Virus record (IMG/VR): IMGVR_UViG_3300032820_000114
Coordinates: 1-24,700 of that record
Length of the DNA stretch: 24,700 nucleotides
DNA from: a virus
Reading direction: 5' to 3' (one strand)
Part shown: positions 1,283 to 15,615 of the stretch, piece after piece
Numbering within the stretch: the stretch's first letter is position 1
How the letters are laid out: every line of letters starts with the position of its first letter
Notes under the pieces: model-generated
Database searches by the model: none
The model's input: only the letters and a program-made list of their open reading frames with translations
Told to the model about the DNA's origin: nothing
Program-made: the position numbers and the translations under genes

Positions 1283-1322
1283 GGAGAAAAGAAGGGGAGC
1301 CTGGATAAGCAAGCCCCCCTTC
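1283..1322 (-). terminator. Terminator-like hairpin after the capsid gene
   Basis: Read on the minus strand, arms GAAGGGGGGC and GCTCCCCTTC (1322-1313 and 1300-1291) pair over ten positions with one mismatch around a 12-base loop. They are followed by TTTTCTCC. A GC-rich stem and a short T-rich tail ten bases after the capsid stop are what an intrinsic terminator looks like. The T run is short and interrupted, so partial readthrough into the membrane protein gene is likely. Confidence 0.6.
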
Positions 1323-1331
1323 CTTCGGATA

Positions 1332-2666
1332 TTAGGCGTTCAAATCTGTGATTTTGGCCTGTACCCACATGTTCTTGCAGCGCATTTCTGCCATCGTGTA
1401 CAACAGTCCACGAACTACAAGAGCGTTAGCTGCGAAGTAGTCACGGTTCTCAACGTATTGAGTAGGTTGAGCAACAGCAATCTCTAGGTAATCTGTGTCT
1501 AGGACATAGATGTTGGAACCTAGAACGCCATCGTTAGTGGCTACGGCCTTCGGCACATCCGCATCAGGTAGGATGGGGATGCCCTGATAGGTAGCTAGAA
1601 CCAATCCAGTGCGAGTACCAGGGAAGGTACGCTCTGAACCTACGCCAACTTGGAATTCTTCCTGCCCCATGTAACGCTGGCTGGAATTAAGCAACCGCTC
1701 CAAATTGAAGTATTGGTCGTGTCCGAGCAAAATTAGCTTCGGCTCTCCACCATTTTCCCGTATCTTCTGGATGGCTGTGTCCAACAAAGTTAGAGTCAAA
1801 GCCCGTCCAGTACCAGAGTTGGAGCCAACTGAAGCAGCAGCATTCCAAGCACCAGCAGTACGGTCATTAAGGGTAAGGTCATAGGCCCGTGTCCGAGCCT
1901 GTCCACCACCAACAGCCATAGCATCTTCCGATACGATGTCGTCAATGGAGGTCATACCAGCCCTGGTGTAGATATAAGCTACGTCACCATCAGCAAACGT
2001 AGTGCCAGTAGCAACCGTCACAACACCTGTAGAGGTGTTGACACCAGAGACTACAGAACCGCTAGTGCGGTCATGGCCCGAAGCTGAAGTGTCGAACTGG
2101 GCTACAGCATCGCCAACCTTAAAGTGTTTGGCAATAGCAGCAGGAACTGTGAAGGTAGTAGTAGCTCCAGCGGAAGTCAGGTATGCTGCTCCAGCCAAAA
2201 GCTCTTCATTGATTTCCTTCACATGGTCTAGTTGAGCATGTTCATTCTCCATTGCGAGAACATCCCCAATACCGCCTTCCAACTGTGCGGTGAAGACGGA
2301 CTTCACGGATGCACCGAAGGTCGTTGATACGATACGAGGCAAGCTCGATACCGTAGCAATATTGGAAATGTCCACTGTTGGGAGACTGCCAGTTTCGGTT
2401 ACTGGGCGAGAGCGTCCAGAACCACGGTCAGTACGAACACGCCAACCAGCGGTGTTGCCCCACACGGTACGTGGGACTGCATTGAAGAACCTAGTTTGGT
2501 TGTTCAACGCCTGCCATACTTTACGTCCATAGGTGGTATTGAAGATACCAGTTGCGGTATCAACAGTAAAGTATGACTGTTTCATCAAGTATTCAGGGCC
2601 AAAAACCGATTGGTACAAGCCCCGTTGAGATTGTGCCAGATATTCAGACAATGAGGGATTAGCCAT
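1332..2666 (-). CDS. Major capsid protein, HK97-like fold
   Basis: This 444-residue protein is the probable shell subunit. Support comes from its size, its position directly after an acidic scaffold-like gene, and capsid-type sequence. There is an N-arm region, a central helix region near 133-160 (GDVLAMENEHAQLDHV), a segment typical of E-loop/P-domain capsids near 300-330 (KIRENGGEPKLILLGHDQYF), and a C-terminal stretch with QGIPILPDADVP and NALVVRGLLYTMAEM. Residues about 162-235 form a Gly/Thr/Val-rich beta-type insertion (KVGDAVAQFDTS to ADGDVAYIY) that looks like a separate domain lodged in the capsid fold. It has the strongest ribosome-binding site in the window (AGAGGAGGA), as expected for the most abundant protein. 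No delta-domain or protease site is obvious. Fold assignment is by pattern and context. Confidence 0.85.
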   Translation of the reverse strand: MANPSLSEYLAQSQRGLYQSVFGPEYLMKQSYFTVDTATGIFNTTYGRKVWQALNNQTRFFNAVPRTVWGNTAGWRVRTDRGSGRSRPVTETGSLPTVDISNIATVSSLPRIVSTTFGASVKSVFTAQLEGGIGDVLAMENEHAQLDHVKEINEELLAGAAYLTSAGATTTFTVPAAIAKHFKVGDAVAQFDTSASGHDRTSGSVVSGVNTSTGVVTVATGTTFADGDVAYIYTRAGMTSIDDIVSEDAMAVGGGQARTRAYDLTLNDRTAGAWNAAASVGSNSGTGRALTLTLLDTAIQKIRENGGEPKLILLGHDQYFNLERLLNSSQRYMGQEEFQVGVGSERTFPGTRTGLVLATYQGIPILPDADVPKAVATNDGVLGSNIYVLDTDYLEIAVAQPTQYVENRDYFAANALVVRGLLYTMAEMRCKNMWVQAKITDLNA

Positions 2667-2671
2667 CTTTT

Positions 2672-2681
2672 GTCCTCCTCT
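2672..2681 (-). promoter_or_regulatory. Very strong ribosome-binding site of the capsid gene
   Basis: The minus strand reads AGAGGAGGAC, then CAAAAG-type spacing to the ATG at 2666. This is a near-perfect complement to the 3' end of bacterial 16S rRNA, with a spacer of about 7 bases. It is the longest such match seen among the starts here and fits very high capsid synthesis. Confidence 0.75.
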
Positions 2682-2697
2682 TCTTAATTAATGTATT

Positions 2698-3525
2698 TTA
2701 GCCTAGAAGTTCCCGTGGGACTCCATCAGTGTTCCCCATTTCGATGTTTTGCTGCAACTTCCTGAGTTCACCATATGACATTTGAGCCAACTGGTCAACA
2801 GTGTCGCCTGCGTTCTGAGCCTTCTGTATGATGGACGTACCATCAACGCCCAAGCCATCACCAGAGGTGAGGGTAGGGGCAACAAGGCCACGCTCTTCAC
2901 GGAAGCCCATCTTCCTCAAACGGCCTTCGGCCTCATTGGAAACAGCCTTTTCCATGTTCGCTTCATACGCAGCTATCTGCTTTTTGAGGGCATCCAACTG
3001 CATCTTCATTTCGTCCATGTCATCGTCAGGGTCTTTCTCTTCATCCTCGCCCTTCTCTTCTACGGGGAAATCAGGTTTGTCCTCTTCCTCATCATCCTGT
3101 TTAGAGTACTTGTCAAAATCCTCATCCTCTTCTTCTTCCTCTTCTTTCTTCAAAGCCAAAATAGCAGCTTGAATAGTCTTCTGCTGGTCTTCTATCTTGG
3201 TTCCAATAGGTGCGCCTTTCTCTGAATCATCAGCACTACTAGCCGATTTGCCAGTAGATTTCGCTGAACGAGAGTCACCGCTTACATCCAAACCTTTCTC
3301 TTCTGTCTTAGTTCCTTCTTTCAAAAGATTGAAAACCTCAGTAGCAACTGCCTTAACCAATCCCTGTTGTTCGGACATGGCGTGTTGCTTCTGGATTTCC
3401 TCATACTCAATCGCATCTTCTTTAGCGAGTCGAGAATCCATCTTTTGGAGAACTTCTGCCACCGCAGCCAAGGCCAATGAATTACCTTCCATCTGCTTTT
3501 CGATACGCTCAGATATGTCTGCCAT
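2698..3525 (-). CDS. Capsid scaffolding-like protein, very acidic
   Basis: This 275-residue protein lies immediately upstream of the capsid gene, the usual place of a scaffold. Residues 1-70 are helical with heptad character. Residues 71-110 are Ser/Lys/Gly-rich and probably disordered. Residues about 127-172 form an extreme Glu/Asp tract. Residues 173-195 (MKMQLDALKKQIAAYEANME) look like a coiled coil. The C-terminal 70 residues (from RLRKMGFREERGL) hold a conserved-looking helical segment, DQLAQMSYGELRKLQQ, possibly the capsid-binding part. High charge, helices and no enzymatic motif fit a scaffold that guides procapsid assembly and then leaves. No protease motif is seen in it or in its neighbours. 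The start has TTAGGAGGAAATCTT upstream. A hairpin leader and a candidate promoter precede it. Function is inferred from position and composition. Confidence 0.7.
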   Translation of the reverse strand: MADISERIEKQMEGNSLALAAVAEVLQKMDSRLAKEDAIEYEEIQKQHAMSEQQGLVKAVATEVFNLLKEGTKTEEKGLDVSGDSRSAKSTGKSASSADDSEKGAPIGTKIEDQQKTIQAAILALKKEEEEEEDEDFDKYSKQDDEEEDKPDFPVEEKGEDEEKDPDDDMDEMKMQLDALKKQIAAYEANMEKAVSNEAEGRLRKMGFREERGLVAPTLTSGDGLGVDGTSIIQKAQNAGDTVDQLAQMSYGELRKLQQNIEMGNTDGVPRELLG

Positions 3526-3540
3526 AAGATTTCCTCCTAA

Positions 3541-3596
3541 ATGTGGCTTAGTTTAGCCCTTGTTGTAAGTCACTTTGGGGCTGGTCTTAGCCACAT
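3541..3596 (-). promoter_or_regulatory. Two-tier hairpin in the leader of the scaffold/capsid transcript
   Basis: On the minus strand, ATGTGGCT (3596-3589) pairs perfectly with AGCCACAT (3548-3541). Inside it, AGCCC (3582-3578) pairs with GGGCT (3559-3555). The two stems are separated by 6- to 7-base internal bulges and close an 18-base loop. The structure ends a few bases before the Shine-Dalgarno TTAGGAGGA of the scaffold gene. It could stabilise the mRNA 5' end, or bind a protein or ligand that adjusts scaffold and capsid translation. It has no T run, so it is not a terminator. Confidence 0.45.
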
Positions 3597-3634
3597 CCGA
3601 CCCGTAAAGTGTTACTTAAATACAAAATTATACT

Positions 3635-3649
3635 GGAATTACGAATTCC
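3635..3649. repeat. Perfect inverted repeat with 3-base centre, possible operator
   Basis: The arms GGAATT and AATTCC are separated by ACG on the plus strand. The repeat lies in the non-coding gap upstream of the scaffold gene, just downstream of the candidate promoter at 3655-3687 and immediately upstream of a second TATAAT at 3632-3627. Such a site could bind a dimeric regulator. A 6-base-arm palindrome in AT-rich DNA can also arise by chance. Confidence 0.3.
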
Positions 3650-3654
3650 TACGC

Positions 3655-3687
3655 CTTTATTATACTAAGAAAAACGAAAAACTCTAA
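3655..3687 (-). promoter_or_regulatory. Candidate phage promoter for scaffold and capsid
   Basis: The minus strand reads TTAGAG (3687-3682), 17 bases, then TATAAT (3664-3659) within TAGTATAATAAAG. The same 13-mer occurs in the only other roomy gap of the left half (9294-9282). The -35 element is poor, so the conserved extended -10 may carry recognition, or a phage factor may assist. A related CTTAGTATAA copy lies at 3700-3691, and another AGTATAAT is centred at 3630. Transcription would start near 3652 and include the hairpin leader. Confidence 0.5.
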
Positions 3688-3696
3688 GTTTTTATA

Positions 3697-3906
3697 CTAA
3701 GATTCTTCAGGAATATCGTTTATTTGTAAATAAAGCATCTCGTTTCTAAAATCATATAGAGGAACTTGGACTAGTTTCTTAAACTTTTCACACTGAGTTC
3801 CTTCGGGCATAGACGCATCAATCAAATCTAATACCTTTCCAACCATGCGAGAGTGCTTTGCTATAATCATTTCTTGAGTTGGGGTTACTTGTCTTGGGTC
3901 TACCAT
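3697..3906 (-). CDS. Small hypothetical protein
   Basis: I do not recognise this 69-residue protein. It begins MVDPRQVTPTQEMIIAKH, is mostly helical in character and ends acidic (INDIPEES). It has two Met near the start. The second (3906) is preferred because AAGGAG lies seven bases before it, whereas the first (3912) would sit one base behind that site. It lies between the gp10-like gene and the scaffold leader in the head region, so a virion or assembly role is possible, but nothing in the sequence shows it. Confidence 0.55.
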   Translation of the reverse strand: MVDPRQVTPTQEMIIAKHSRMVGKVLDLIDASMPEGTQCEKFKKLVQVPLYDFRNEMLYLQINDIPEES

Positions 3907-3920
3907 AGTCATACTCCTTC

Positions 3921-4430
3921 CTATCTTCTACTGATAATTTCAGATGATAGCGTTTGAGGTAATGCATTTTTAAGAGTCTTGTCTTTAACTCCTGCCCTTA
4001 CTTGTTCCCACGCTTTAGTAAGGAAGGGGATTCCTTCTTGACTTGACCTCGCATTAGTAATACGCCATTGCTCAGGCCCAACTTGGTGTGGCCCTTGATA
4101 ATTTTTGTATTGTTTCTTATGGCTTCTGACTTTAGAAACCTTTCCACTAGCGTGTCTTCTTATATGAGATTTAACATTCATTTGAAAATTACGTTGAGCT
4201 GAAGATGCTTGTGAACCATCATGTACTGTAGATGAATAAGGAGCCTCAAAAACAACAGTCCATCCTTTCCTTGGATTCTTAATCAAACGAGCAGACTCTC
4301 GTAAGGCTCCACTATGTTCGGGAGCCATCCCTTTAGCTAGGTCAAGAGTTTGTTGACCTAAATCTAACATGAACTCATGGTAAGCTTTGTCTAATGCTTT
4401 AGCTAGTTTCTTCATTTTTTTATTCGGCAT
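3921..4430 (-). CDS. HK97 gp10-like head-tail joining/tail completion protein
   Basis: This 169-residue basic protein shows the pattern of the HK97-gp10 family. A first helix (residues 5-33, ending QTLDLAKGMAPEHSGALRESA) carries the typical AP-x-x-SGALR-S motif, followed by strands (WTVVFEAPYSSTVHDGS) with the conserved Y-S-x-x-VH-x-GS. These proteins form the ring that joins head completion proteins to the tail tube. The C-terminal half is longer and more basic than usual (HIRRHASGKVSKVRSHKKQYK) before a last helix containing PFLTKAWEQVRAG, which is also family-like. The start overlaps the upstream small ORF by 11 bases. Finding it upstream of the scaffold and capsid genes is somewhat unusual, since gp10-like genes normally follow the capsid gene. 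Confidence 0.7.
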   Translation of the reverse strand: MPNKKMKKLAKALDKAYHEFMLDLGQQTLDLAKGMAPEHSGALRESARLIKNPRKGWTVVFEAPYSSTVHDGSQASSAQRNFQMNVKSHIRRHASGKVSKVRSHKKQYKNYQGPHQVGPEQWRITNARSSQEGIPFLTKAWEQVRAGVKDKTLKNALPQTLSSEIISRR

Positions 4431-4620
4431 AATGATTATTATACTCAGGTTCTTCCAGAATCATAATAGTTTTTTTCATTAATCTTTCAAACTCAAGTTC
4501 GTCATAAATTAAAGAACCATAGGAATTTCCCCAATCACGCCACTCCATTAACATTCCTACTAGCAAAGTCTTCATTACTATTAACTTAGTTATCTCTTTT
4601 TCATCTTTAAACGATTCCAT
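4420..4620 (-). CDS. Small hypothetical protein
   Basis: I do not recognise this 66-residue protein. It is acidic and helical, with a Met- and Leu-rich middle (KLIVMKTLLVGMLMEW) and a Tyr/Asn-rich end. GAGG precedes the ATG by about six bases. The gene overlaps the phosphoesterase gene by 14 bases and the gp10-like gene by 11, so it sits in a tight translational chain. The middle segment is hydrophobic but short and interrupted by charges, so I would not call it a membrane segment. Confidence 0.55.
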   Translation of the reverse strand: MESFKDEKEITKLIVMKTLLVGMLMEWRDWGNSYGSLIYDELEFERLMKKTIMILEEPEYNNHYAE

Positions 4621-5911
4621 CCCAACCTCTCTCTAATATGTCTGCCCAAGTATCTGGCACTATATCTGTGAACTCAGATTCCACATTATCATATCTACTT
4701 AAATAGATAACTTCCTTACCTACATATCCATATGCAGGATGCCAGTAAGTTACTATCTGTTTCGGATGGCTGGCTTTCTGTATTCGCTGGAAAGCGAATT
4801 CATCTGGGCCTTTCATACAACCACAGATATGAAGCTCTCCTGTATCTATGTCTATCTCATCAACCCTATGAAAATGCCCTAGCATCACAGAATCAAACTG
4901 GGTTTTCTTAAACCCTTCCTGATTATATTGTAGAACACTACGTAGATTGGATACAGTCTTAGTTAAAGATTGTGCTGAACCACCGCCTGATACTGCATCG
5001 CCATGCATAATCAAGATGTTTCGGTTAGCTACCGAGAAGATATGAAAGAAACTCTGGCTTATATCAAATTTGATATTAGCATGATTACGGCAAAAAGCAG
5101 CAATCCATTGATACATCATATAGTCCCAATCCATGTGTTTATCTTTCATCGGAGGTTTCCTTGTCATACGTCCATGATTACCTACTACACAAGGAATTGA
5201 AATGGATGAAAAATGAGGGGCTAAATATCTTAGGGCTTGAGCAATTAAGTTGGCTCCCCTAATCATTTGTCCCATACAGTGGTCTACATTAGTTTTAGAT
5301 AACTCTTCATGTATATCTCCACTAATCATATCGCCAAGTAACGGTACAACTAACTCATTAATGTCTGCCGTATTTCTTCTATAAGAAACTAGATTAACTA
5401 ATTGTTGTGTCCATCCATACAAACGGCTGTTAAAGATTTCAAAATCATATTGATTAATACCAGCCATCTGTTTAAAATCTACATACTCACCAACATGTGT
5501 ATCAGATAAAGGAGCCACTACAATCTGTGCCGTGTCTCCCCTATGTTGGTTCTTAACCTTAGGGAGTTTAATAGGTGGAAGAGCCTGAAAAGCTGGAGCT
5601 AGTTCCTCAACAGAGCGAACCAACAAATCTTTTTGGGCTAGTTGTTTAATAGCCTGCTCATATAATTTCTTATAGAGCTTAGTTTCACCACTAGAAGTAG
5701 CTAGTTTCTTATCTAACTTTACTCTAGTAGCATCATCTAGATAAGTTTCCTCTTCGTTTTGAGCGTTCAGTTCTTTGTCGTACCAACGTTGAACCGTTGT
5801 CCGATGTACTGATAACCCGTGGGTTTGTTCTATCCAGATTGCTATGTCCGTCCAAGTCTCTCCCTGATTCCTCTTCTCTATCGCTTGTCTTTTTATCTCT
5901 TCTAGAGTCAT
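4607..5911 (-). CDS. HTH-metallophosphoesterase (calcineurin-like)
   Basis: This 434-residue protein has two parts. Residues about 1-45 form a helix-turn-helix of the terminase-small-subunit/transposase type (GETWTDIAIWIEQTHGLSVH, then RTTVQRWYDKE). A charged helical linker runs to about 120. The rest is a metallophosphoesterase domain with its metal-binding motifs in order: D137-x-H139 (SDTHVG), GD 193-194, GNH 244-246, H303 (IMHGD) and GHFH 345-348. The family hydrolyses phosphomono- or phosphodiesters with two metal ions; the substrate here is unknown. AAGGAG lies six bases before the ATG, which fixes the start although it falls inside the zinc-ribbon ORF. A DNA-binding domain joined to a phosphoesterase within the head genes suggests action on DNA ends or nucleotides, but that is inference. 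Confidence 0.85.
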   Translation of the reverse strand: MTLEEIKRQAIEKRNQGETWTDIAIWIEQTHGLSVHRTTVQRWYDKELNAQNEEETYLDDATRVKLDKKLATSSGETKLYKKLYEQAIKQLAQKDLLVRSVEELAPAFQALPPIKLPKVKNQHRGDTAQIVVAPLSDTHVGEYVDFKQMAGINQYDFEIFNSRLYGWTQQLVNLVSYRRNTADINELVVPLLGDMISGDIHEELSKTNVDHCMGQMIRGANLIAQALRYLAPHFSSISIPCVVGNHGRMTRKPPMKDKHMDWDYMMYQWIAAFCRNHANIKFDISQSFFHIFSVANRNILIMHGDAVSGGGSAQSLTKTVSNLRSVLQYNQEGFKKTQFDSVMLGHFHRVDEIDIDTGELHICGCMKGPDEFAFQRIQKASHPKQIVTYWHPAYGYVGKEVIYLSRYDNVESEFTDIVPDTWADILERGWDGIV

Positions 5912-6026
5912 ACTGTCTCCTTACATTGAGTACCAATACTTTTCCACACATTAAGCAACTTAAATCTTTGTCTTCATTGAACTGCATTGGCCCCTCACAC
6001 TGAGGGCAAAGGTTCATAAATATCAT
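5733..6026 (-). CDS. Small zinc-ribbon protein with overlapping basic tail
   Basis: Translation from ATG at 6026 gives 97 residues starting MIFMNLCPQC. The first 35 residues hold a clear zinc ribbon: CPQC, then an acidic loop, then CLMC. Small zinc ribbons of this type are common in phages near HTH proteins. The ATG overlaps the TGA of the preceding gene (ATGA), so coupling explains the weak Shine-Dalgarno sequence; a TTG nine bases earlier is less likely. From about residue 40 the protein is Arg-, Ser- and Asp-rich and its codons overlap the first 179 bases of the phosphoesterase gene in another frame. The tail may be unconstrained run-on, but the ribbon itself looks real. It probably binds DNA or RNA or a protein partner; the target is unknown. 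Confidence 0.65.
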   Translation of the reverse strand: MIFMNLCPQCEGPMQFNEDKDLSCLMCGKVLVLNVRRQYDSRRDKKTSDREEESGRDLDGHSNLDRTNPRVISTSDNGSTLVRQRTERSKRRGNLSR

Positions 6027-6913
6027 TGTGGACAATTCTTCTTTTCTTCTTCTTTAGTAATGTTAGCATCTGGTGGTAGCTTATCTTTCTTCCCACTCCT
6101 TCTAAGTTCATCAGCACCAAACCCCCAGGCTAAGGCTAACTGTCCTACCGCAGAACCTGTGTCTTGAATCTCTGCGCTACTGCCCTTACGCTTTCTTTCC
6201 TCTTTAACCCTTCCAGCTAACAAATTAGTGAAGGAGTTTTGGTCTACAGCAGCTTGGTCTTTCGTACCTTCCATAGCATGTTCCTCTGGTTCTACTGGAT
6301 TAGGATTGTCAGTTTCCCTTCGTTTTTTCTTCCAATCAGGTTCATTCTGAAGTGGCCCCATAAATCCATGACCAGCAACAGAATGTGATTCCTGCTTCAT
6401 CATTTTCTGTTCGGGGCTGCTTTCAGTTACAAAATCTACTAGATGGTCAATGCCACGTTTCTTCCTCTTCGGACTACGGTTATCCCCATGCGTTCTAGTG
6501 AAAGCACCAGGGTCATTAGAAGTCCATACAGTACCACCTGTTTCAGAACCATAACCCACACCACCGCCCTCTTCTTTCTGTACCGAATTCATCACAGTCT
6601 CCGCAACTTTACCAGCAACTCCACCCGCAGCAGCAGCACCAGCAGCGACTAAAGGTGCTGCCAGTAACCCAATTATTTTCTTTACAGGTTTAGGTTTACT
6701 AGATAGTTGAAGATGTATTTCATCTTTAGCTAATTCAGTTACATATAATCTACACCAATGTTCGGGGTCAATGCTTCCTTCCACCAATTCACATTGCCCG
6801 TTATCAAAGTATAAACACTTCCCACAGACGTAACCTTTGTCTAGTTCAGACTCTGTGCCTGGTCTATACATAACTTCATCTTTATTAACTTTAGTAGCTT
6901 TATTCAGATTCAT
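6023..6913 (-). CDS. Virion-associated protein with HiPIP-like Cys motif and hydrophobic segment
   Basis: This 296-residue protein follows the portal gene with a 14-base overlap; GAGG precedes the ATG by about nine bases. Residues 28-58 hold C30, C33, C41 and C54 in the order C-x2-C-x7-C-x12-C (YVCGKCLYFDNGQCELV, then EHWCRLYV). This resembles the cluster-binding part of high-potential iron-sulfur proteins and a phage family that looks like it. A Lys/Pro stretch is followed by an Ala/Gly/Leu hydrophobic segment at about 80-104 (IIGLLAAPLVAAGAAAAGG), which could be a membrane or pore-forming helix. The remaining 190 residues are polar, Gly-, Lys- and Glu-rich and probably disordered. Adjacency to the portal suggests a minor head or ejected protein. 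Whether it carries Fe-S, zinc or nothing cannot be told from sequence. Confidence 0.5.
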   Translation of the reverse strand: MNLNKATKVNKDEVMYRPGTESELDKGYVCGKCLYFDNGQCELVEGSIDPEHWCRLYVTELAKDEIHLQLSSKPKPVKKIIGLLAAPLVAAGAAAAGGVAGKVAETVMNSVQKEEGGGVGYGSETGGTVWTSNDPGAFTRTHGDNRSPKRKKRGIDHLVDFVTESSPEQKMMKQESHSVAGHGFMGPLQNEPDWKKKRRETDNPNPVEPEEHAMEGTKDQAAVDQNSFTNLLAGRVKEERKRKGSSAEIQDTGSAVGQLALAWGFGADELRRSGKKDKLPPDANITKEEEKKNCPQ

Positions 6914-9264: not shown

Positions 9265-9285
9265 AATGTTTCTCCTCTGTTCTTT

Positions 9286-9314
9286 ATTATACTACAATTT
9301 CACGGATTATGCAA
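9286..9314 (-). promoter_or_regulatory. Candidate promoter for the portal gene group
   Basis: The minus strand reads TTGCAT (9314-9309), 17 bases, then TATAAT (9291-9286). The surrounding TAGTATAATAAAG is identical over 13 bases to the candidate promoter ahead of the scaffold gene. The -35 element overlaps the stop codon of nrdJ. Transcription would start near 9279, leaving a leader of about 15 bases that carries the strong Shine-Dalgarno of the next gene. The site allows the head genes to be switched separately from nrdJ and terminase. Confidence 0.5.
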
Positions 9315-11124
9315 CAGCGCAAGCACTCCAACCACAACTCTTACAAGATTCACATCCATCAGCCATCACAATAAATGGTAACTCACAGCATTTAGATGCT
9401 ATATGAGAGTCCGTATGTCCACTAACAAGCACTTCCTTCTCCCTACTTCCAGCCCTATATACTGTAACACCCTTACAACCGCTCTCCCAAGCCTTCATAT
9501 AGGCATCCCATACATCATTATGGGTAGCATCAGGAGATAAATTAATCGTTTTAGAAATACCAGAGTCACAATGTTCTTGGAAAGCAGCCTGCATTTTAAT
9601 GTGGTTAGCAGGAGTTATGTCAGAAGCTGTTACATATAACTCTTTAAATGCATCAGGTACATCATCCCTATCCTGCAAACTGTTGCCTTCCGCTAAGTAA
9701 TCCATTAAGTCTTCGGAATAGAATCCAAATTCTTGGGCATCTGCTTCAAAATACTTATTCACATAGTACAGAGTTTTTCCTTCTAGGATGTTCTGTTTCT
9801 TCCACACCAATGCAAATGTAGGTTCAATACCGTTAGAAGCATCCGCTAACATAGAAATAGTACCAGTAGGAGCCACAGTTAAACGGCAAGCATTTCTATA
9901 GTTTTCATGTACAGGATAATCACTCTTTTCCCAAGCAGGGAATTCCCCTCTCACAGCCCCCAATTCCAAAGAAGCTGCGCTGGCTATCTGATTTATGTAC
10001 TCCATGAGTTCACTACCCAAGGAAACAGCCTCTTCAGTATCATAGGGAATACCTAATTGAATGAGTAAATCGGCAAAGCCCATTACACCCAAACCAATTT
10101 TACGGGTAGCTTTAGTCATATCCCTAATCTCAGGAACAGCATAGTCGTTAGCGTCCACTACATTATCTAGGAAACGAATGGCTAAATTCACCACTTTCCT
10201 TAGTCTAACCCAATTAATACTATTATCATCTTGATTATAGAATTTAGCTAGGTTAATCGAACCAAGGTTGCAACTTTCATATCCCAACAGGGGCTGCTCA
10301 CCACAAGGATTGGTCGCAATTATATCCCCAAATTGTTTGGATACTTTGTTATCCTTATTAATGGTATCCAAAAATACCACCCCAGGTTCTCCATTTCTCC
10401 ACGCACCTTCAATGATTCTAACAAATACCTCATGGGCATTTAGTTCGCCAGCATTTTCCAATGTATGTGGGTTAACCAAAGTATAATCCGTGTTATCACG
10501 TACACATTGCATGAACGCACTGTCTACACCAACGGAGATATTAAAGTTATGAATATCACCTTCTACATGTTTGCAATCAATGAACTCTAGGATGTCAGGG
10601 TGATACACACTCATAACAGCCATGTTAGCCCCGTCACGCTTACCGCCCTGTGTTATCATACTAGAGATACGGGAAAGGGTTTTCAGTACTTCTATGGGGC
10701 CACACGCCTTCCCATGAGTAGTGGAAATACGAGAATGTTTCGGTCTAATAGTGGATAGGGAAAATCCTGTGCCACCACCAAATTTCTGCACCAAGGCAGA
10801 GTCAGTAGCAGCTTTCATAATACCTTCCATGCTATCTTCTATCGGTAATACGAAACAAGCACTCAATGTACCTTGTTCTGTTCCTGCATTCATTAACGTA
10901 GGTGAATTAGGTAAGAACTCTAGGTTAGCCATCATAGCCTCAAACTCTTTAGTCAGAAGATGGATTTTACTCTCTATAGTATTATATTCACGTTCTATAG
11001 AAGCTATTGCCATTGCTACCCTTCTAAACAGAGCTACTTCGTCTTCTACAATGGCTCCATCAGAATTCTTTAAGTAGTATCGGCTCTTCGCCACGGTTTC
11101 TGCTTGTTCCGTTAATGTTGTCAT
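9307..11124 (-). CDS. nrdJ: Ribonucleotide reductase, adenosylcobalamin-dependent (class II)
   Basis: This 605-residue protein reduces ribonucleotides to deoxyribonucleotides for phage DNA synthesis. From the ATG at 11124, C90 (LSACFVLP) and C285 (ESCNLGSINL) are the redox pair. NPCGEQ at 272-277 carries the thiyl-radical Cys274 with Asn272 and Glu276. Further family motifs are FGGGTGFSLS (115-124), GGKRDGANM, APTGTISMLADAS (418-430) and SGISKTINLS (521-530). The C-terminus has a Cys-rich swinging arm (CESCKSCGWSAC). This motif set and the lack of a small-subunit gene nearby point to class II (B12-dependent), so the host must provide cobalamin. The start at 11124 has AAGGAG six bases upstream; an upstream ATG at 11151 would overlap terL and lacks a site. 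Its place between terminase and portal genes is unusual. No separate thioredoxin is visible. Confidence 0.93.
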   Translation of the reverse strand: MTTLTEQAETVAKSRYYLKNSDGAIVEDEVALFRRVAMAIASIEREYNTIESKIHLLTKEFEAMMANLEFLPNSPTLMNAGTEQGTLSACFVLPIEDSMEGIMKAATDSALVQKFGGGTGFSLSTIRPKHSRISTTHGKACGPIEVLKTLSRISSMITQGGKRDGANMAVMSVYHPDILEFIDCKHVEGDIHNFNISVGVDSAFMQCVRDNTDYTLVNPHTLENAGELNAHEVFVRIIEGAWRNGEPGVVFLDTINKDNKVSKQFGDIIATNPCGEQPLLGYESCNLGSINLAKFYNQDDNSINWVRLRKVVNLAIRFLDNVVDANDYAVPEIRDMTKATRKIGLGVMGFADLLIQLGIPYDTEEAVSLGSELMEYINQIASAASLELGAVRGEFPAWEKSDYPVHENYRNACRLTVAPTGTISMLADASNGIEPTFALVWKKQNILEGKTLYYVNKYFEADAQEFGFYSEDLMDYLAEGNSLQDRDDVPDAFKELYVTASDITPANHIKMQAAFQEHCDSGISKTINLSPDATHNDVWDAYMKAWESGCKGVTVYRAGSREKEVLVSGHTDSHIASKCCELPFIVMADGCESCKSCGWSACAVA

Positions 11125-11134
11125 TTTAATCTCC

Positions 11135-12820
11135 TTACCCTCTATGTCCACAATATATACACAAATTTCGTTCTTTTACCCAAAAGGAAGGATTGCACAT
11201 CGCTTCTCTGCACGTTGGATTGGGTGCGTTCTGCTGCCTCGTTTCGGCTGGGTTTCCGTCTAGATTTTCCCATAGTTCTACTTTTAACTTATCTACTATA
11301 GATTCCTTTAACTTAGCTACTTTATTTTCTTCTTCGTTTGAACCTTCACCTCTCTGTTCTCCTGGGCTTACAGCCGAAAGCCAATCTACAGCATTGCCTA
11401 AATCAGTAAACTTATAGGCTGTTTCATGGCAAGCCAACAATGCTAGAGCTATCGAAAAGAACGCATCACCATGACCCATAGGGGTTTCTGGAGCTTTCAA
11501 TTCATTACTTACAGATAGAATCTGTTGCCTTTGTCTTTCATCACTTATTAAATGCAAACGCCCACTATGTATAAATTCTTCAAAAACCTGAGCCATAGTA
11601 TTCTTATTCTTTAAAGTAAAGTGTAAACCATGCCACCTAGCGTCTAAGCCCCTATCCTCAAGTTCTCCTCTAGTATTATCTATATACCCTTTAGAAATAT
11701 CAAATGTTTCAGCCACTTCATTTAGATAGGCTATCTGGTCAGAATAATTCCATCCGTCTAAGAAGGAGGAATGAATCTCGTCTATCCTATCTCCAGATTT
11801 CTTAAAGATTACTAAATGGGATGGGTGGCGTTTCTTTCCTACATCGAAGCCTGCAAAGATTTGGTCAGCAGGAAGTCTATCATTATAAGCTTTAGTAACA
11901 GGATGATTACGTAAAGTATCATCCTCACACTTAGTAATGTCTTCCTCACTAAAATAAGACTCAGTAGAGAAATGAGGAACCAACATAAATTCAGAAGCAA
12001 AGGATTTAGGTCTAGCTGCTTGTTGTTGCAGTAACCACTCTTCGTTATACAGTTCTGGCATTAAAACTCTGCGTCCAGGCGCAGGGTCTAACGCAGGGAG
12101 TATTCTATATTTAAAACGGGAATCATCCTTCAATTTAGTAAGTAAATCTCCAGGCATCATGGGAGTTCCAAGAACAATTACTGGTACACCCTTCAAAGGA
12201 ATGAACAAAGATTCAGTCATAAAGTGGTCTTCTACTTTAGTTAGCTGACCTATGTTTAACGGATTCTCAGGGTCACGAAGCACATCGTCTGCAATCAACG
12301 CCCCATTTACATGCAAACCTCTCTTAAATGAAAAAAGACCGCCATGCATGATTTCCATAGGTTGTTTATTTAAATAAAATCTAGCGGAGAAATCAGCCTT
12401 GGGTGACCTATTCACCATCATATCTTTTAGAATAGGGTTTCTATAAATTGTTTTATTTATCTCAGAAATATGGTAACGAGCCATACCATCACTGTAAGAT
12501 AAATAAAGAACAGAACAATCTCTAGGAGCCTTTAAGAGTCTCCAGACTGAGAACGCATGTCCGAGTATAGTTGATTTAAAATGGAATCGGGGTAGTACTG
12601 CACAGTAGTTAAGTCCAGCATCCACGCATTCCTCAATATCCTCTGCAAGCACACCAACATGCCATGCTTGAAAATACTCAGGATGGTCATAGCTTTGGCT
12701 CCAAATATCTCTAACAAATTCCCAGAAGCTCCCTATTTGAGTTCGGCCTTGTTTAGTTATTAAACCTTCGGCTAGAAGGTTCATTGCGTTATTAATGCTG
12801 GTAACTTCTTCTGCTGGCAT
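11135..12820 (-). CDS. terL: Terminase large subunit
   Basis: This 561-residue ATPase/nuclease drives DNA into the procapsid and cuts it. The ATPase half has a variant Walker A, PRFHFKST (77-84), with Phe where Gly is usual, as in several phage terminases. Walker B is ALIADD (174-179), and the coupling motif GTP is at 218-220. The nuclease half has the RNase H-like acidic residues D326 (FAGFDVG), D381 (YIDNTRG) and D452 (MGHGDAFF). After a charged linker (485-515), the last 25 residues hold C537, C542, C554 and C557 with H559, a zinc-knuckle-like tail not standard for the family. The gene starts at the stop of terS (TAATG) with AAGGA ahead. It ends ten bases before nrdJ. Confidence 0.93.
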   Translation of the reverse strand: MPAEEVTSINNAMNLLAEGLITKQGRTQIGSFWEFVRDIWSQSYDHPEYFQAWHVGVLAEDIEECVDAGLNYCAVLPRFHFKSTILGHAFSVWRLLKAPRDCSVLYLSYSDGMARYHISEINKTIYRNPILKDMMVNRSPKADFSARFYLNKQPMEIMHGGLFSFKRGLHVNGALIADDVLRDPENPLNIGQLTKVEDHFMTESLFIPLKGVPVIVLGTPMMPGDLLTKLKDDSRFKYRILPALDPAPGRRVLMPELYNEEWLLQQQAARPKSFASEFMLVPHFSTESYFSEEDITKCEDDTLRNHPVTKAYNDRLPADQIFAGFDVGKKRHPSHLVIFKKSGDRIDEIHSSFLDGWNYSDQIAYLNEVAETFDISKGYIDNTRGELEDRGLDARWHGLHFTLKNKNTMAQVFEEFIHSGRLHLISDERQRQQILSVSNELKAPETPMGHGDAFFSIALALLACHETAYKFTDLGNAVDWLSAVSPGEQRGEGSNEEENKVAKLKESIVDKLKVELWENLDGNPAETRQQNAPNPTCREAMCNPSFWVKERNLCIYCGHRG

Positions 12821-14714: not shown

Positions 14715-15408
14715 AAGTCTCCTCATGGATAAATGGTGCTACGATTTCAGCGCATTGCATCACCTTGTCTATATCAAAATCATCTTGTGAGTTTCTAAGT
14801 TTAGTTTCCATGTCTACCCAAATTACAGTATCTTCAGGAAGGAAGTAATCTAGGTAATCCAGTTCTGCTTTAAGGTTATCTGGGCCTAGCCCACCAGCAT
14901 ACCCACATTTCCTACCTTCGATAGCTGAAGGCCATGCAAAAGGAGTCCTGCCAGCACCACTAGAAGTATCAAATAACAAGGAAGTTTGGGGATGGATTTC
15001 ATGTATCCAATCATTCTCACCATCCATCTGTACTATAACTTCTTGTCTCAATTTATCAATTAGATTTCTAAAATTTGCTTTGTCAAGAATCATGTCTACT
15101 GGTAAGCCATGAAAGTTTAATTGAATTCGTTTAAATTTATTGAATAGGTCAACCCCAACAAGTCCAGCGAAAGTGGTGATATTTCCTCGTACAGCATTAG
15201 TTACAAACGCCCCACATAGGTGAGCAGATAAAGTAAGGGAAGAATCTGCCAAGGGGGTTATCCATTGTCTAGATGGAAATCTATGGCTTCCAGTAGAAGG
15301 GAATAATATACCCCATTCTACAAAAGGAAAGTAAGTGGAAACTTCTTCTAAATGCGCTATGCTTGTGGTATCGTCTGCACCTGTAAAAGTAATATTAGAG
15401 ACTTGCAT
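14698..15408 (-). CDS. TrpF-like (phosphoribosylanthranilate isomerase-like) TIM-barrel protein, catalytic Cys absent
   Basis: This 236-residue protein follows the layout of PRAI/TrpF barrels. An N-terminal strand (VSNITFTGADD) replaces the K-I-C-G start, then FVEWGILFPST, then RIQLNFHG (94-101) like the family's Q-L-H-G. LLFDTSSGAGR (144-154) carries the general-acid Asp, here D147, with a Gly-rich phosphate loop. YAGGLGPDNL (170-179) is the second phosphate-binding loop. WVDMETKLRNSQDDFDIDKV (197-216) matches the family's D-V-S-S-G-V-E region. The general-base Cys of TrpF is absent; Thr or Phe takes its place, and the first Cys is C65. It probably binds a phosphoribosyl-type substrate but does something other than tryptophan synthesis, for which no other gene is present. 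AAAGGAG precedes the ATG. Role unknown; base modification or nucleotide metabolism are possibilities. Confidence 0.75.
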   Translation of the reverse strand: MQVSNITFTGADDTTSIAHLEEVSTYFPFVEWGILFPSTGSHRFPSRQWITPLADSSLTLSAHLCGAFVTNAVRGNITTFAGLVGVDLFNKFKRIQLNFHGLPVDMILDKANFRNLIDKLRQEVIVQMDGENDWIHEIHPQTSLLFDTSSGAGRTPFAWPSAIEGRKCGYAGGLGPDNLKAELDYLDYFLPEDTVIWVDMETKLRNSQDDFDIDKVMQCAEIVAPFIHEETYVSAA

Positions 15409-15580
15409 TATTTGCTCCTTTCTGAACTTTCTTATCTGAGAATTCTTTAGCTTTTTCCTTAAAGCCCCATTTTGTCCTAAGCCCAGGTCTTCTCTTTAAT
15501 TCGTTTTTCACAAATTCTAATTCGTCTGGTTCTAACTCACCCGCCCACCCAGGAATTAAAATACGTTTATCAATATCCAT
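15395..15580 (-). CDS. Small hypothetical protein
   Basis: This 61-residue protein begins MDIDKRILIPGWAGELEPDE and is basic towards its end (KWGFKEKAKEFSDKKVQKG). I do not recognise it. The ATG at 15580 is preferred to a GTG at 15589 because GAGG lies eight bases before the ATG but directly abuts the GTG. It overlaps the TrpF-like gene by 14 bases, so the two are likely translated together. Confidence 0.5.
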   Translation of the reverse strand: MDIDKRILIPGWAGELEPDELEFVKNELKRRPGLRTKWGFKEKAKEFSDKKVQKGANNASL

Positions 15581-15615
15581 ACCACTCACCTCAAAGGTTC
15601 ATGGTATTATTGTAC

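Follow-up and report, generated by a model that had tools for sequence, protein, structure and literature searches.

In a large family of uncultured marine phages, the leader of the scaffold–capsid messenger RNA holds a small, nearly unchanging folded RNA that probably controls the timing of shell-protein synthesis. We analysed it in a 24,700-nucleotide (nt) stretch (hereafter the window), positions 1 to 24,700 of IMG/VR virus record IMGVR_UViG_3300032820_000114. The element lies in a 171-nt gap between the gene for a 71-amino-acid protein (p71, 3912–3697) and a scaffold-like gene (3525–2698), which is followed by the major capsid gene (2666–1332); the genes flanking the gap are all on the minus strand. 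It consists of a 22-nt core, GUCGG-(1 or 3 nt)-UGGCU-N-AGACCA(A/G)C, at 3601–3580 (minus strand), closed by a stem, P1. We judge it an even call that this leader holds a new cis-regulatory RNA in which the 3' strand of P1 doubles as an anti-Shine–Dalgarno sequence.

3578–3603, minus strand: conserved RNA element (P1 5' arm 3603–3600, core 3601–3580, P1 3' arm 3581–3578; model score 39.1 bits)

The element was found in all 156 capsid-selected records with enough upstream DNA, window included. A first capsid search of IMG/VR gave 75 loci, 63 of them with the exact core and 12 beginning inside or after the scaffold gene; two further capsid searches brought the total to 197 records. The capsid start was found in 189, 34 with less than 1,500 nt upstream were set aside, and of the 155 remaining, 148 had the exact core and 7 differed at one position. 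The 156 records hold 74 distinct element sequences, and none has a second copy upstream of its capsid gene. Because the searches returned the nearest 75–80 of up to 398 relatives, and some contigs carry two identifiers, these are counts of records from the nearer part of the family, not of species. A pattern scan of viral contigs added at least 114 further loci. A scaffold homologue follows the element in 176 of 178 pattern instances and the capsid gene in 161, the remainder running out of DNA. The p71 gene lies 5' of the element in 167; eight instances lack upstream DNA, and three records (two of them one contig) have the DNA and no p71. In five loci p71 is 0.9–2 kilobases (kb) away, and there the element remains beside the scaffold gene. 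Each of 12 long contigs (36–82 kb) has one copy.

Cellular copies were considered and rejected. Across 84,980 genomes the core pattern occurred in 27 contigs, which we judged to be chance, several tens being expected by a rough hand estimate. The first downstream open reading frame (ORF) matched one of four phage proteins in 6 of the 27 (blastp E ≤ 1), the best being a capsid match in L203 (E = 0.006, 57 amino acids, 26%). The covariance model gave 8 contigs at E ≤ 1, mostly over the core positions used to pick them, with 25.9 bits for the best, L202, against 39.1 for the window. No occurrence in another setting held up in the scans of viral contigs (at least 114 loci) and of these genomes.

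Comparison of related sequences supports the predicted fold. P1 has 4 base pairs (bp) in the window and is longer in most relatives. Two alignments were used: A1 (98 sequences), most of whose loci had been selected with a pattern that leaves few core bases free to vary, and A5 (74 sequences), from capsid-selected loci in which the element was located by a slightly relaxed pattern; a mismatch-tolerant search of the capsid-selected loci gave only one core variant. In A5, 94.5% of P1 cells are paired, against 84.6% in shuffles, and there are 84 two-sided changes against 26.8, neither value being reached in 500 shuffles (kinship among sequences is ignored here, as in the A1, wobble, loop-base, pair-orientation and 103-leader counts below). 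Sliding P1 lowers pairing to at most 63.4%. A weaker measure, the number of pairs with a two-sided change, was 6 against 4.9 (93/500 shuffles). A1 gave the same picture, and RNAalifold predicted the same stem unprompted. A capsid tree (102 proteins) analysed by parsimony gives 1, 4, 3, 5, 10 and 8 two-sided, pair-keeping changes, about 31 in total, for the six P1 pairs that vary, counted from the core outward; the innermost pair changed from U-A to C-G in one clade (7 variant records). G-U/U-G wobble pairs number 53 against 10 A-C/C-A, indicating that the element acts as sense-strand RNA. Both features expected of a cis-regulatory structured RNA in general, a covarying stem and a fixed place in the 5' leader, were thus found.

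Two parts of the core vary together. The bulge 3' of CGG is 1 or 3 nt long, and the variable loop base is U in 0 of 21 sequences with the short bulge and 76 of 95 with the long one. On the capsid tree, nine of ten bulge-length changes coincide with a switch between U and non-U, the remaining one beginning at non-U; ten further loop-base changes occur by themselves under the long bulge, and a short bulge with U was never seen. This coupling suggests that the bulge and the loop base touch.

P1 also appears fitted to the ribosome-binding site. Pyrimidines dominate its 3' strand, which often reads CCUUU or CCUUC, and this strand pairs better with the Shine–Dalgarno region of its own leader (−5.74) than with those from other clusters (−4.72; 46 clusters, z = −5.1). 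The same comparison over 103 distinct leaders, left after 15 of the 178 instances were dropped because the start codon was not located by rule, gave z = −8. Leaving aside the two fixed top pairs, three P1 pairs are purine–pyrimidine in 74, 67 and 67 of 74 sequences and reversed in 0, 5 and 0. Modelled exposure of the Shine–Dalgarno sequence was 0.57 with the element formed versus 0.25 without, the gain exceeding 0.2 in 62 of the 103 leaders and 0.5 in 36.

Several results weigh against the proposed fold and its link to the ribosome site. The number of A5 pair types, 18 against 14.3 (5/500 shuffles), is also reached by structures slid by +2 and +3, and the outer P1 pairs often break: changes to or from the unpaired state number 0, 0, 2, 6, 7 and 17 from the core outward, with 17 and 20 also given for the fifth and sixth counted pairs. 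UGG/CCA is invariant, and a rival register would join that CC to the first GG; since it never varies, this pairing is neither supported nor refuted. In 39 of the 103 leaders, the strand pairs with its own region no better than it does, on average, with foreign ones. Shuffled linkers give an equal exposure gain (0.59 versus 0.27; difference 0.317 versus 0.315; Wilcoxon P = 0.77), so any anti-Shine–Dalgarno character sits in P1, and a designed linker or switch is not demonstrated. The window's own leader has no modelled gain. Set against what defines a translational riboswitch, a sensor stem and a Shine–Dalgarno pairing that exclude each other, own fit beats permuted fit, the exposure effect equals that of linker-shuffled leaders and the window shows none.

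Translational control by the element is likely, and we consider it a little better than even that P1 formation is the on-direction. The element lies on the translated strand, 3' of a conserved promoter and 5' of the Shine–Dalgarno sequence, and P1 closes its invariant core (CGG, 1 or 3 nt, UGGCUNAGACCA). A phage or host protein, or less likely a metabolite, would recognize the core and stabilize P1, whose 3' strand would otherwise pair with the Shine–Dalgarno region. With P1 formed, the ribosome site would be exposed and more scaffold and capsid made; with P1 open, the site would be hidden. The window's clade would use a different competitor, a downstream strand that pairs with the core itself, with no predicted change in exposure. 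Switches commonly combine one sensor with varied competing strands. We infer the switch, its direction and its binder, a specific binder being implied by the fixed core. A wider proposal, which we consider less likely than not, is that the element represents a regulatory RNA class new to phages. Its compact sensor, with a bulge–loop contact, would read infection stage or shell-assembly state through a protein or small molecule, drawing the anti-Shine–Dalgarno strand into P1 would turn on scaffold–capsid translation, and the sensor would have stayed the same while the competing strands came to differ between clades.

In tailed phages, the timing and balance of scaffold and capsid synthesis have been worked out in only a few models. 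This control gains a direct handle in the present RNA, which is almost invariant across all records checked, is small enough for in vitro work and reliably marks these phage genomes. Were the binder a metabolite, the element would be a riboswitch on a phage structural operon, of which we know no example, although no search was aimed at one.

We weighed other explanations for the conserved leader. It is unlikely that the element is an autogenous operator, at which unbound scaffold or capsid protein would attach to the hairpin and repress its own translation by blocking the ribosome site sterically or cooperatively. The autoregulated P22 scaffold would be a precedent, the element does stay with the scaffold gene where p71 is distant (five loci), and it ends 27–75 nt (median 47) before the ATG. 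The variability of that distance speaks against a simple steric block, and the scaffold protein diverges (36–60% identity among the rows listed) while the core stays fixed.

Two further readings are distinctly improbable. As a transcription-elongation element, the promoter-proximal RNA would act on RNA polymerase as put RNA does, modifying it for transcription of the late unit. Its place shortly after a conserved promoter in 124 of 124 distinct upstream sequences, with one copy per contig, would suit this role; a strong terminator-like hairpin soon 3' of the capsid gene and the lack of any attenuator seen between the element and the scaffold gene, both in the window, do not, and the fit of P1 to the Shine–Dalgarno sequence is left unexplained. 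As a stability or processing element, it would protect the messenger together with a 5'-end hairpin, be cut by an RNase or be a ribozyme. A protective stem alone needs no invariant core, and no ribozyme family reached its Rfam cut-off, although 5'-end hairpins recur in many clusters and catalysis or specific cleavage would be in keeping with coupled parts in a core that does not vary. A DNA-level site, for an operator, packaging or recombination, is scarcely credible: a single copy at a fixed genomic place would be expected of one, but the wobble bias (G-U 53 versus A-C 10) and the constant sense-strand position between promoter and Shine–Dalgarno sequence argue for RNA.

The earlier note on this DNA had proposed a different structure from the same bases, an 8 bp plus 5 bp nested stem.

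3541–3596, minus strand: clade-specific nested stem (3596–3589/3548–3541 and 3582–3578/3559–3555), its 3' strand complementary to the invariant core

This stem, pairing 3596–3578 with 3559–3541 (8 bp followed by 5 bp, with 79% complementarity across 19 nt), is real and strong in the window's clade. Alone it folds at −23 kcal/mol versus −14.2 (standard deviation (s.d.) 2.9), with 1 of 200 shuffles as good, and the extra element–linker pairing of the clade is −24.4 versus −12.2 (s.d. 2.5; 0/200 shuffles). It was found in the window, L002 and L004, and its formation would dismantle the conserved fold. As a family-wide structure it was rejected: P ≤ 0.05 in only 4 of 44 cluster representatives, window included, with a combined P of 0.31. 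Its covariation is invisible because one arm is the invariant core. Held to the check in the note, covariation of stems among related phages, this stem fails and another hairpin built from the same bases passes. A role for the nested stem as the operator, confined to the window's clade, is very improbable, since for all the strength of its pairing it occurs in three sequences and is not general.

No Rfam 15 family (4,227 models) reached its gathering cut-off over the element, and the whole window gave no match. The 241 bases around the gap gave two matches at E ≤ 10, far below cut-off, and seven relatives gave two at E ≤ 1, below cut-off and away from the element. Literature searches, covering mostly titles and listings with many subscription papers outside their reach, found no description of such an element. 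The element is like translational riboswitches in having a fixed core, varied flanks and a stem strand complementary to the Shine–Dalgarno sequence; it is unlike them in that it has no known ligand and that the scans made placed it in a single phage family and a single operon. A fold that the core might adopt, with a bulged A and a triloop, would resemble RNA-phage coat-protein operator hairpins, and rests on invariant bases; the phages here are tailed, have double-stranded DNA genomes and carry a capsid protein of an unrelated kind. Wyckoff and Casjens reportedly described autoregulation of the P22 scaffold in 1985. As proposed for the window, a scaffold gene is there said to be under post-transcriptional control; the phage is unrelated. 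The Wyckoff and Casjens paper is cited in PMC5744158. In PMC3014915, the T4 gene 43 and gene 32 operators are RNA structures in phage 5' leaders, some tens of nucleotides ahead of the start codon, a position that the element appears to share. They differ in serving replication genes with known protein binders, and they share no sequence or structure with the element as far as compared. Likeness to the T4 operators or to P22 does not make the element a member of either. The manA, wcaG and PhotoRC-II RNAs, known from marine metagenomes and cyanophages (PMC2864571), are as described there tied to metabolism or photosynthesis genes, and their Rfam models do not match the element.

Upstream of the element, the leader begins at a conserved promoter.

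3658–3667, minus strand: promoter element TAGTATAATA, with TATAAT at 3664–3659 and a predicted start near 3652, conserved in relatives
3676–3685, minus strand: upstream box AGAGTTTTTC in place of a −35 element (often AGGATTTTTC in relatives), recurrent but not universal in 124 upstream sequences
3635–3649, minus strand: 5'-end hairpin (6+3+6 palindrome GGAATT-CGT-AATTCC), with hairpins of varying sequence here in relatives

The start near 3652 suggested in the earlier note is borne out by conservation: in all 124 distinct upstream sequences TAGTATAATA matches at 8–10 of 10 positions (10 in 90, 9 in 26, 8 in 8), 23–64 nt 5' of the core. The note had also read three AGTATAA copies (3628–3634, 3660–3666, 3692–3698) as promoter; the middle copy is conserved among relatives, and the other two are not conserved as promoter, the first overlapping the upstream gene's stop codon. 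The whole window holds 11 copies versus 5.96 expected (3/100 shuffles reach 11). A sigma-70 scan (−35 TTGACA-like and −10 TATAAT-like, 16–18 nt apart, at least 9 of 12 positions) lists no site at 3664–3659 despite the TATAAT, and 7 sites in 2500–6500 versus 8.4 expected. In many relatives an A/G-rich then T-rich, AGGATTTTTC-like box about 10–18 nt before TAGTATAATA stands in for a −35 element and is perhaps bound by a phage-encoded activator or sigma factor. Exact TAGTATAATA also occurs ahead of the 8848–9264 gene and the portal gene, and GAGTATAATA ahead of the neck gene (9285–9294 and 4437–4446, minus strand), perhaps marking a phage-wide promoter type. The palindrome noticed earlier exists at 3649–3635 and its type is common in relatives: a hairpin just after the predicted start reached P ≤ 0.05 in 11 of 43 clusters and P ≤ 0.01 in 4 (combined P = 7 × 10−11; two clusters were too short, and the start is probably misplaced in a few, for example L021). 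In the window alone it is no stronger than shuffles (P = 0.23).

The remaining features of the unit are as follows.

3697–3912, minus strand: p71, gene preceding the gap and context marker, before 167 of 178 element instances
3533–3538, minus strand: Shine–Dalgarno AGGAGG of the scaffold-like gene, directly after the nested stem
2698–3525, minus strand: scaffold-like gene (275 amino acids, acidic, isoelectric point 4.4), named from place and composition only
1332–2666, minus strand: major capsid protein gene (phrog_24667, E = 1.5 × 10−19; SU10_MCP, E = 3.5 × 10−13)
1287–1326, minus strand: terminator-like hairpin closing the unit 3' of the capsid gene (−27.4 kcal/mol)

By sequence the capsid protein is SU10/HCTV-like; its ribosome site is GAGGAGG at 2680–2674 (minus strand). 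The scaffold-like protein had no PHROG match. All features first named in the gap (the AGTATAA copies, palindrome and nested stem) exist near their reported positions on the minus strand, and the terminator-like hairpin predicted behind the scaffold–capsid unit is present in the window. The cassette as first read therefore holds for promoter, structured leader and a unit ending in such a hairpin, and not for the nested stem as a general functional structure. The gap is the largest gene-free one if the 64-amino-acid ORF at 15395–15589 is a gene; otherwise 15409–15615 is longer. The whole 135-nt leader fold has z = −1.38, with 18 of 200 shuffles as good.

We also considered p71 as the element's binder and set it aside, structure and family comparisons giving no support for RNA binding and not excluding it. 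It is a predicted two-helix hairpin (mean predicted local distance difference test (pLDDT) 89.5) with 14 invariant positions over 47 members, which are 49–93% identical to the window protein. The window protein had no Pfam match, and of its 43 PDB matches not one reached E ≤ 0.001; the best VIA-align Z, 6.7, is within reach of unrelated helical models. Among 50 BFVD Foldseek matches listed, four were Acb2/Tad1 hairpin-domain (anti-CBASS sponge) proteins (E 1.1–3.6), which we regard as a weak lead and for which Pfam gave no support.

Searches of 50,697 phage records found no isolated relative by p71 (E ≤ 1), terminase (E ≤ 10−5) or scaffold (E ≤ 0.01), and no isolated phage matched at the DNA level. 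The only capsid relatives there were nine archaeal tailed-virus records; the helicase, primase and polymerase match phage families. A ribonucleotide reductase gene lies at 9307–11151 (minus strand), between the portal and terminase genes.
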